Assembly: GCA_021163005.1 (NCBI GenBank) | Contig: JAGGXP010000006.1 | Location: 1-34,287 of the forward strand | From: Candidatus Aenigmatarchaeota archaeon | Lineage (GTDB): Archaea > Aenigmatarchaeota > Aenigmatarchaeia > QMZP01 > JAFGSV01 | DNA length: 34,287 nt | Reading direction: 5' to 3' | In this document: one piece after another, positions 11,610 to 13,590 of the stretch | How positions within the stretch are numbered: position 1 is the stretch's first letter | Layout of the letters: the number at the start of each line of letters is the position of its first letter | The notes under the pieces: model-generated | The model's database searches: none | What the model saw: the letters and a program-made list of their open reading frames with translations, nothing else | What the model was told of the DNA's origin: nothing | Translations under genes and position numbers: made by a program

Positions 11610-11975
11610 ATTCCGGTTGATCCTGCCGGAGGTCATTGCTATCCGAATCCGACTAAGCCATGCAAGTCTTGGTGTTCATCTTTGGACACTAGGGCGGAAA
11701 GCTCAGTAACACGTAGTTAACATGCCCTCAAGTCTGGGATAATCTCGGGAAACTGAGGCTAATACCAGATAGATAAAAGATACTGGAATGTTCTTTTATC
11801 CAAAGATTTATCGCTTGAGGATTGGACTGCGCCGGATTAGGTTGTTGTGAAGGTAAAATCTTCCCAAGCCGATAATCCGTACGGGCCTTGAGAGAGGAAG
11901 CCCGGAGATGGATTCTGAGACAAGAATCCAGGTCCTACGGGACGCAGCAGGCGCGAAACTTTCCCAATGCACGAA

Positions 11976-12034
11976 CCCTTTTCGGTGTGAGCATACAAAA
12001 GCGTTCACGGAAAATCATACCGAATAGGCGTGAA
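11976..12034 (+). other. BHB mini-intron 1 of 16S (59 nt, module family)
   Basis: Central helix CACG/CGTG, bulges AAC and AAA, long inner helix CCTTTTCGGTGTG/CATACCGAATAGG. Joining rebuilds the h15 hairpin GCAC-GAAA-GTGT. It contains the shared module CCCTTTT, hairpin, AAAAGCGTTCACGGAAAA. Confidence 0.85.
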
Positions 12035-12309
12035 AGTGTGAGGAAGGGATTCGGAGTGCATTCTCTTATAAAGGGGATGCTTTTGTGGAGTGTAAAAAGC
12101 TTCACGAATAAGTGGTGGGTAAGACGGGTGCCAGCCGCCGCGGTAATACCCGCGCCACGAGTGATGACCACGTTTATTGGGCTTAAAGCGTTCGTAGCCG
12201 GCCCAGAAAGTCCTTAGTGAAATCCCGCAGCTAACTGTGGGGCTTGCTAGGGAAACTGCTGGGCTTGGGACCGGGAGAGGTCTGGGGTACTCAAGGGGTA
12301 GGGGTAAAA

Positions 12310-12370
12310 CCCTTTTGCGCATGAGACAAGCAAAAGCGTTTACGGAAAACATATGCGCACTTGGTTACAT
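12310..12370 (+). other. BHB mini-intron 2 of 16S (61 nt, module family)
   Basis: Lies in the 690 loop. Central helix GTAA/TTAC, bulges AAC and ATT. Joining gives GGGGTAAAA-TCCTGTAATCC, the archaeal consensus. The module is CCCTTTTGC, loop, GCAAAAGCGTTTACGGAAAA. Confidence 0.88.
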
Positions 12371-12467
12371 TCCTGTAATCCTTTGGGGACCACCGGTGGC
12401 GAAGGCGCCAGACCAGAACGGATCCGACGGTGAGGGACGAAAGCTAGGGGAGCAAAGGGGATTAGAT

Positions 12468-12535
12468 TGACCCTTTTTACGGGAGCTGACGCTTCCACAA
12501 AAGCGTCAACGGAAAATGTAAAAATGGTCCTAAAA
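12468..12535 (+). other. BHB mini-intron 3 of 16S (68 nt, module family)
   Basis: Splits the universal GATTAGAT/ACCC block (E. coli about 793). Central helix TTAG/CTAA, bulges ATT and AAA, inner helix GACC/GGTC, outer GGGG/CCCC. The interior contains CCCTTTTT and AAAAGCGTCAACGGAAAA. Confidence 0.92.
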
Positions 12536-12654
12536 ACCCCCGTAGTCCTAGCTGTAAACGATGCCCACTAGACATTGGCAATCTCACGGGGGTTGTCAGT
12601 GCCGTAGCGAAAGCGTTAAGTGGGCCGCCTGGGGAGTACGGTCGCAAGGCTGAA

Positions 12655-12732
12655 TACATGACTGCTTATACTGAGCAATTACTGCTTGGCTAATGAAGCA
12701 GTAGCTGAACAGAGTAAGCAGTCGGTCGGCAA
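12655..12732 (+). other. BHB intron 4 of 16S (78 nt, no module)
   Basis: Splits GGCTGAA/ACTTAAGG at E. coli about 908, a site known for archaeal introns. Central helix GCTG/CGGC, bulges AAT and AAA, inner helix GACTGC/GCAGTC, outer AAG/CTT. The interior has its own ACTGCTT/GAAGCAGT hairpin and lacks the shared module. Confidence 0.9.
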
Positions 12733-13186
12733 ACTTAAGGGAATTGGCGGGGGAGCACACAAGGGGTGGAGGCTGCGGTTTAATTGGATTCAACGCCGGG
12801 AACCTTACCAGAGGCGACAGCAGAGTGAAGGTCCGCTTGAAGAGCGTACCAGACGCGCTGAGAAGTGGTGCATGGCCGTCGTCAGTTCGTGTCGTGAGAT
12901 GTCCACTTAAGTGTGGTAACGAACAAGACCCGCGCTTCATGTTGCTATCGTATATTTCGGTATGCGAGCACTCATGAGGGACCGCTGGCGATAAGCCAGA
13001 GGAAGGTGCGGTCGACGGCAGGTCTGTATGCTCTGAATCCTCTGGGTTACACGCGGCCTACAATGACCGGGACAATGAGATGCGACACCGAAAGGTGAAG
13101 CCAATCTCGAAACCCGGCCTCAGTTCAGATCGAGGGCTGCAACTCGCCCTCGTGAAGCCGAAATCCCTAGTAGTCGCTGGTTAGCA

Positions 13187-13257
13187 AGAGCCTTTTTACA
13201 AGAGCCTGAGAGCTTCTGCAAAAAGCCTCGGGAAAAAATGTAGAAAGATTCCTAAAC
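13187..13257 (+). other. BHB mini-intron 5 of 16S (71 nt, diverged module)
   Basis: Lies in the h43 loop. Outer helix CGCTGG/CTAGCG, central TTAG/CTAA, bulges CAA and ACT. Joining gives GGTTAGCA-TCTAGCGGCG. The interior CCTTTTTAC, hairpin, AAAAAGCCTCGGGAAAAA is a diverged version of the shared module. Confidence 0.85.
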
Positions 13258-13383
13258 TCTAGCGGCGAATACGTTCCTGCTCCTTGCACACACTGCCCGT
13301 CAAGCCATCTGAGTGGATCCTTGGTGAGGCTTTCTTATTTTGGGAAAGTCGAGCCAGGGTTCTGCAAGGAGGGCTAAGTCGTA

Positions 13384-13493
13384 AAGCGTAGAGACGGGCA
13401 ATATGATCGGGGAAACCCGAGATGACTTATATTGTGTGCGCTTTGGAACTTCAAAGAGCACATAGTATAGACTATCGTCTCTATGCTCGACAA
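13384..13493 (+). other. BHB intron 6 of 16S (110 nt, no module)
   Basis: Splits AAGTCGTA/ACAAGG (E. coli about 1499), beside the decoding-site strand of h44. Central helix GTCG/CGAC, bulges TAA and AAA, inner helix AGCGTAGAGACG/CGTCTCTATGCT. No shared module. Confidence 0.92.
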
Positions 13494-13590
13494 ACAAGGT
13501 AGCCGTACGGGAACGTGCGGCTGGATCACCTCCTTATTAACCAAAAAACCTCTTCAAGGACATCTTAACTGGGGCCGGTAGATCAGTGGA

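Follow-up and report, generated by a model that had tools for sequence, protein, structure and literature searches.

BHB introns in 16S rRNA genes and short palindromic elements are both already known. The ends of IS200/IS605 elements combine a hairpin with pairing between a guide and the cleavage site. In Thermoproteales, the BHB introns of 16S genes, short hairpin-type ones included, are removed by the tRNA-splicing endonuclease, occupy 13 sites (374, 548, 722, 781, 803, 901, 908, 919, 978, 1093, 1205, 1213 and 1391) and generally do not conserve their structures (Jay and Inskeep 2015, PMC4496867). For Thermoproteales, Fujishima et al. (2010) described introns that resemble one another and lie in different tRNA genes and at different positions, as far as the citation of that work in PMC3293823 conveys. 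Rickettsia palindromic elements and prokaryotic MITEs are short, palindromic, multi-copy sequences of ~150 nt that insert in frame into genes, and the review that treats them mentions neither tRNA nor introns (PMC10969869). The origin and spread of archaeal tRNA and rRNA introns is a long-standing open question.

Here we analyse a stretch of 34,287 nucleotides (the window) from a Candidatus Aenigmatarchaeota archaeon. Four of the six introns in its 16S rRNA gene (I1, I2, I3 and I5) hold one common element, which was overlooked in an earlier note on this DNA. We consider it likely that this element belongs to a mobile hairpin family that EndA and RtcB can splice from rRNA and tRNA. The BHBs, the empty sites, the family, its covariation and its dispersal rest on sequence; splicing, the two folded states and mobility are what we infer.

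The 16S rRNA gene and its six introns

The 16S rRNA gene, introns included, lies at 11610..13535 on the forward strand (end ~13535; cmscan RF01959 and alignment of the spliced product). All six introns that the earlier note had predicted are there on the same strand: I1 (11976..12034, 59 nt; BHB CACG/CGTG), I2 (12310..12370, 61 nt; GTAA/TTAC; common to genomes G002 and G024), I3 (12468..12535, 68 nt; TTAG/CTAA), I4 (12655..12732, 78 nt; GCTG/CGGC), I5 (13187..13257, 71 nt; TTAG/CTAA) and I6 (13384..13493, 110 nt; GTCG/CGAC). By primer numbering, they follow E. coli positions ~382, ~696, ~793, 908, ~1362 and 1499, respectively. The claimed form, a 4-bp central helix with two 3-nt bulges, likewise holds at every border: exon bases −6 to −3 fully pair with intron bases −6 to −3, and each bulge is cut after its second base in six of six introns (I1 AA↓C and AA↓A; I2 AA↓C and AT↓T; I3 AT↓T and AA↓A; I4 AA↓T and AA↓A; I5 CA↓A and AC↓T; I6 TA↓A and AA↓A). 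Shuffled introns matched the border pairing together with the observed inner helix at p = 0.0002 for I1, I3, I5 and I6, 0.004 for I2 and 0.006 for I4. There is no contiguous outer helix in I1, I3 and I6, and one of 3 bp in I2 and I4.

Cutting after the second bulge base had been held to restore conserved 16S sequence, and the resulting junctions exactly match the empty sites of relatives: with zero extra bases at the exact junction, the site is empty in congener G001 for I1, I2, I3 and I5, in congener G002 for I4, and in G010, G018 and others for I6. These empty sites are evidence independent of folding, and we regard them as the best proof for each intron. The spliced product measures 1479 nt, the length that had been given, and is 74–84% identical to its counterparts in four relatives; its alignment with these four has no inserted run longer than 4 nt. 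As for the 'extreme load' of introns, the number six stands, while its extremeness is a matter of degree because most related 16S genes also carry at least one intron. The I6 site (1499) is filled in many relatives; inserts of ~86–275 nt without the element core occupy it at L008, L009, L012, L013, L014, L015, L016, L017 and others.

The genome encodes the RtcB ligase and, at two loci (G000:C1:4652 and G000:C14:27900; open frames of 188 and 434 codons), the splicing endonuclease EndA; the two EndA genes are not present together in every genome of the order. Because exact BHBs and sites empty at the same base coincide with EndA, RtcB and the lack of a second 16S gene, the best reading of the six insertions is that they are removable BHB introns, a reading that is well supported and that predicts splicing in the cell. 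In our model, the tRNA-splicing endonuclease would cut all six and RtcB would join the exons. An intact second 16S copy, which the earlier note had named as the sign of a pseudogene, was sought, and one 16S gene is present in the assembly. At 91% completeness this assembly could be missing an intact copy, and we otherwise found no support for a pseudogene with unspliced insertions; with exons that are intact and align with those of relatives, an exact BHB at every insertion and no other 16S copy found in the assembly, such a pseudogene is extremely improbable. A group I or other Rfam class for these short introns was rejected for want of any Rfam match, RF00028 (group I) matching none of the six at E up to 1.

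The insertions fall in the universal 16S primer sites 787–806 and 1492–1510, so that such archaea can be missed in surveys. Their intron-rich tRNAs also escape tRNA finders, and ARAGORN finds no tRNA in the whole window. The 16S–23S spacer (13570–13735) contains a tRNA-Ala(TGC)-like gene with apparent D-loop and T-loop introns, in which ARAGORN finds no tRNA and predicted splicing did not restore one.

A recurring hairpin with a copy-specific 4-nt match

Placed side by side, I1, I2, I3 and I5 read CCTTTT ... AAAAGC-NNNN-CGGAAA or a near variant. The layout of the element is a 4-nt flank, C, CTTT(T), an apical hairpin of any sequence, (A)AAAG, C, the complement of the flank and RCGGAAA. A covariance model (R1) built from 28 copies gives seven strong matches in the window, namely in I1, I2 and I3, three times in the 23S gene and once antisense at RNase P RNA. 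On the forward strand, the core lies at 11973..12013 in I1 (GAAC-C-CTTTT...AAAAG-C-GTTC-ACGGAAA; 50.5 bits), at 12307..12348 in I2 (AAAC ... GTTT; 53.9 bits) and at 12468..12515 in I3 (TGAC ... GTCA; 37.6 bits). I5 matches weakly at 13187..13235, also on the forward strand (13.2 bits, E 0.13), with a diverged element in which the flank GAG is matched by CTC; a ninth match is partial and at chance level. The element was not found in I4 or I6. Within the LSU (23S) gene (14030–18280; cmscan), one forward-strand core occupies an expanded segment that is a candidate intron (17448..17490; 33.6 bits) and two lie in predicted BHB introns on the same strand, GTTC/GAGC at 17675..17723 (core 17675–17708) and GCAG/CTGT at 17781..17851 (core 17781–17823). 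The antisense core, at 20335..20377 on the reverse strand (29.9 bits), is at the 5' side of a forward-strand RNase P RNA match (20362–20633 in a region of ~20100–20640; RF00373, 71.3 bits, below the gathering score of 84). The 5' part of this RNA is expanded by the antisense element and by two diverged repeats near 20256 and 20321.

Two further features of the window may be recorded here. The 23S gene has a group I-like intron (window 16400–17040), with an RF00028 match at 16773–16974 (39.9 bits, E 1.3e-8) that is below the gathering score of 50 and a LAGLIDADG endonuclease ORF at 16459–16950 (PF00961, E 2.2e-26). An ORF at 33036–33749 on the reverse strand has a C-terminal end that by eye resembles a bacterial type IX secretion sorting domain, which is odd for an archaeon.

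In the 945-kb genome, a pattern search yields 26 matches and the covariance model 46 copies, counts that rest, as do the others given here, on draft assemblies; the reversed pattern yields none. The settings of these copies include 16S, 23S and tRNA introns, tRNA 3' flanks and the antisense position at RNase P RNA. The pattern matches in 30 of 61 relatives, and its reversal in none. A stricter pattern, run over 84,980 bacterial and archaeal genomes, matched at least 112 stretches, of which 80 were listed. Among the matches listed, all are archaeal, and the element occurs across DPANN and several euryarchaeal groups: carriers are Aenigmatarchaeota, Micrarchaeota, Diapherotrites, Parvarchaeota, Nanohaloarchaea, Altiarchaeota, Woesearchaeota, Pacearchaeota, Methanophagales (ANME-1), Methanocellales, Methanosarcinales, Methanomicrobiales and Thermoplasmata. 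Tandem arrays are seen at L243, L245 and L254 and include G000:C3:27001-27206 and G000:C28:38906-39111; their 82-bp unit combines the element with a second, covarying hairpin, and one array directly follows a tRNA gene. On the 16S and RNase P regions, Rfam 15 (4227 models) matched only rRNA and RNase P, and our searches of open-access papers returned no such element and no introns of this lineage. A union of BHB introns and short palindromic elements that features an unvarying mismatch and a 4-nt match particular to each copy was found neither in Rfam 15 nor in the literature searched.

The pairing between the four bases that precede CCTTT and the four that follow AAAGC is perfect in 204 of 237 copies; shuffling the partners gives 26 such copies on average and never more than 43. 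The 28-copy alignment has 27 cells changed on both sides and none changed on one side only, and the outermost flank base uses A, C, G and T nearly equally yet is paired in 94%. A C·C mismatch separates the 4-nt helix from CTTT/AAAG in all 171 copies with perfect match and tail, and the CTTT/AAAG stem is unchanged in 192 of 192. Because conserved bases were fixed in the patterns that gathered the copies, this invariance is in part built in, other than at bases that a pattern left free. Where the 4-nt match is broken, the mismatches are 19 G·T, 8 A·C and 34 other. We rejected maintenance of the match by ordinary RNA selection, as this spectrum has at most a weak wobble excess; being nearer to random decay than to such selection, the mismatches make the match look as though it is set at the birth of a copy. 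The internal match is followed by a purine, which forms a pair with one base of the match; wobble in this pair is strand-specific (17 T·G, no C·A), so that the small hairpin CG-YNNR-CG looks like a genuine structure under selection. That the element is a guide recognizing a pre-existing target was rejected from the anticodon-loop introns, in which the 4-nt flank comes after the exon and does not belong to the intronless tRNA; the flank therefore seems to come with the element or with an older intron.

In the rRNA introns, CCTTTT may have two partners, the internal AAAAGC in a hairpin state or the 3' part of the intron in a BHB state. The complement of the 5' exon lies in this 3' part as well. 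By folding prediction, the BHB fold is 4–10 kcal/mol better than the hairpin in I1, I2, I3 and I5, so EndA should find its substrate there, and because of the same difference we rejected the view that these 16S introns are most stable as hairpins. For one 23S intron, the two states are predicted to be equally stable. The hairpin state could be an early RNA form or a DNA form of the element. In our preferred reading, the BHB state is removed by splicing, and this lets the element persist in essential RNA genes.

Settings of the copies and possible routes of movement

Inside tRNA genes, as annotated by ARAGORN alone, 44 copies are in sense and 5 in antisense orientation. Among 243 copies, 40 directly follow the T-loop GTTC, and 4 lie 0–2 nt past a tRNA 3' end, where 0.05 are expected. 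Splicing at predicted BHBs restores 24 tRNAs, as against 9 with a shifted 3' cut; in 10 of these 24, the predicted 5' splice site is exactly where the element begins. One identical core occurs at three tRNA genes of the genome under study with three different matched flanks. Near stop codons there are 14 sense copies, 10 of them within 2 nt of the codon; intergenic sense copies no more than 2 nt from a stop codon are found at L117, L129, L134, L161, L181, L203, L222, L310 and L311. Repeated tRNA 5' fragments (GGGCCTGTAGCTCAG) are present at L062 (1988 and 2071) and L084 (544). After each fragment comes an element with a 3' part complementary to it, and then the tRNA itself.

Copies also interrupt a protein-coding gene. 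A gene for a Y1 transposase (PF01797) in the archaeon Yes46-13 contains two copies that are clear and in frame, besides a third that is degenerate; the interrupted gene exists in three copies that are 94–100% identical over the part searched, and a 91% identical fragment elsewhere in the genome has no inserts. The first insert reads IK[NPFCKQKAFTEKCFA]DPPKYS versus IKYPPKYS in the uninterrupted fragment, and the second SSK[QTLLEKAFTEKRFA]VRDRF versus SSKLLRDRF. Together with congeners that lack the element at the same sites, these in-frame copies argue that the element disperses, and it has the traits of a MITE in being short, multi-copy, dispersed and non-coding. A core that does not move and is instead a convergent or anciently inherited splicing motif for the folding of BHB introns could be read from the location of most copies in tRNA or rRNA introns and from a two-partner layout able to steer folding. 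This is very unlikely, since congeners differ in whether the very same base carries an insert, some copies sit in ORFs or just past stop codons, unrelated sites share identical cores, and two introns, I4 and I6, manage without the element; in-frame copies beside an uninterrupted paralogue already largely refute it. The recurring core, its presence or absence in congeners and the uninterrupted paralogue make intron gain datable and testable.

Against our preferred reading of a mobile, spliceable hairpin family stand the intergenic, in-frame and antisense copies, for which splicing does not account, the lack of the element in I4 and I6, the equal stability predicted for the two states in one 23S intron, and the want of a consistent target duplication. 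Intergenic, in-frame and antisense copies, the antisense ones lying in tRNA genes and at RNase P RNA, favour movement as DNA. In its pure form, this would mean a palindromic element of the MITE, REP or Rickettsia-palindromic-element type. A transposase or recombinase would move it in trans, introns and RNA loops would collect copies as safe places, and BHB splicing would be incidental. The invariant sequence with its C·C mismatch does resemble a recognition site, and the 4-nt match is nearly strictly Watson–Crick and decays almost at random; the sense bias of 44 to 5 in tRNA genes and the exact coincidence of the element's start with the 5' splice site in 10 of the 24 tRNAs restored speak against it, as do the absence of an IS200-type transposase from the genus and of a consistent target duplication. 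A Y1 (IS200-type) transposase occurs in 14 of the 61 relatives overall, with none in the genome itself or its genus, and mobilization by a Y1 transposon in the genus was rejected for that reason. No consistent target-site duplication emerged at 15 intergenic copies, and the empty transposase paralogue has diverged. On balance, we regard an element of DNA alone as a sizeable possibility that we nonetheless doubt.

The sense bias, and sites after T-loops, at splice sites, at tRNA 3' ends and just past stop codons (10 of 14 within 2 nt), would fit RNA movement, whereby excised intron RNA would be joined to the 3' ends or loops of other RNAs, copied to DNA and recombined into the genome. The wobble of the RCG hairpin, 17 to 0 on one strand, points the same way, and transposition of tRNA introns has already been proposed in Thermoproteales (Fujishima 2010, in the form in which PMC3293823 cites it). 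Antisense copies exist, however, and selection against them in RNA genes could yield the same bias; we consider this route rather unlikely. With respect to the spliceable hairpin family as a whole, we put forward tentatively, as somewhat less likely than not, that it represents a class of portable introns: new, very small mobile elements of archaea that are spliced from tRNA and rRNA, have their four nucleotides matched to the flank at birth by guided targeting or copying, and may be moved by host RNA processing or by some enzyme yet to be named.

Comparison with described systems

Archaeal group I introns (PMC6125680) are likewise rRNA introns; here, in contrast, the six 16S introns do not match RF00028 and a group I-like intron lies in the 23S gene instead. 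Like the ends of IS200/IS605 elements, our element has a hairpin in which an internal guide pairs with a tetranucleotide. Unlike them, it consists of one hairpin and a mini-hairpin only and occurs in a genus without Y1 transposase, and the transposase gene of Yes46-13 is a victim of the element and not a shown agent. With Rickettsia palindromic elements and MITEs it shares short palindromic repeats, many copies and in-frame insertions, while differing from the Rickettsia elements in being archaeal, 30–85 nt long, spliceable (by prediction) in RNA genes and matched to a 4-nt flank.

The 16S introns resemble those of Thermoproteales (PMC4496867) in their BHB borders, their presumed removal by the tRNA-splicing endonuclease, their location at conserved 16S sites and the presence of short hairpin-type introns among them. 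They belong to another phylum, only 908 of the six sites is among the 13 listed there, and one core recurs at many sites. The tRNA introns of Thermoproteales, as described in what PMC3293823 cites, are set apart by that description from the family considered here, in which rRNA, tRNA, intergenic and coding sites in many archaeal groups share an invariant structured core whose 4-nt match is specific to each copy.
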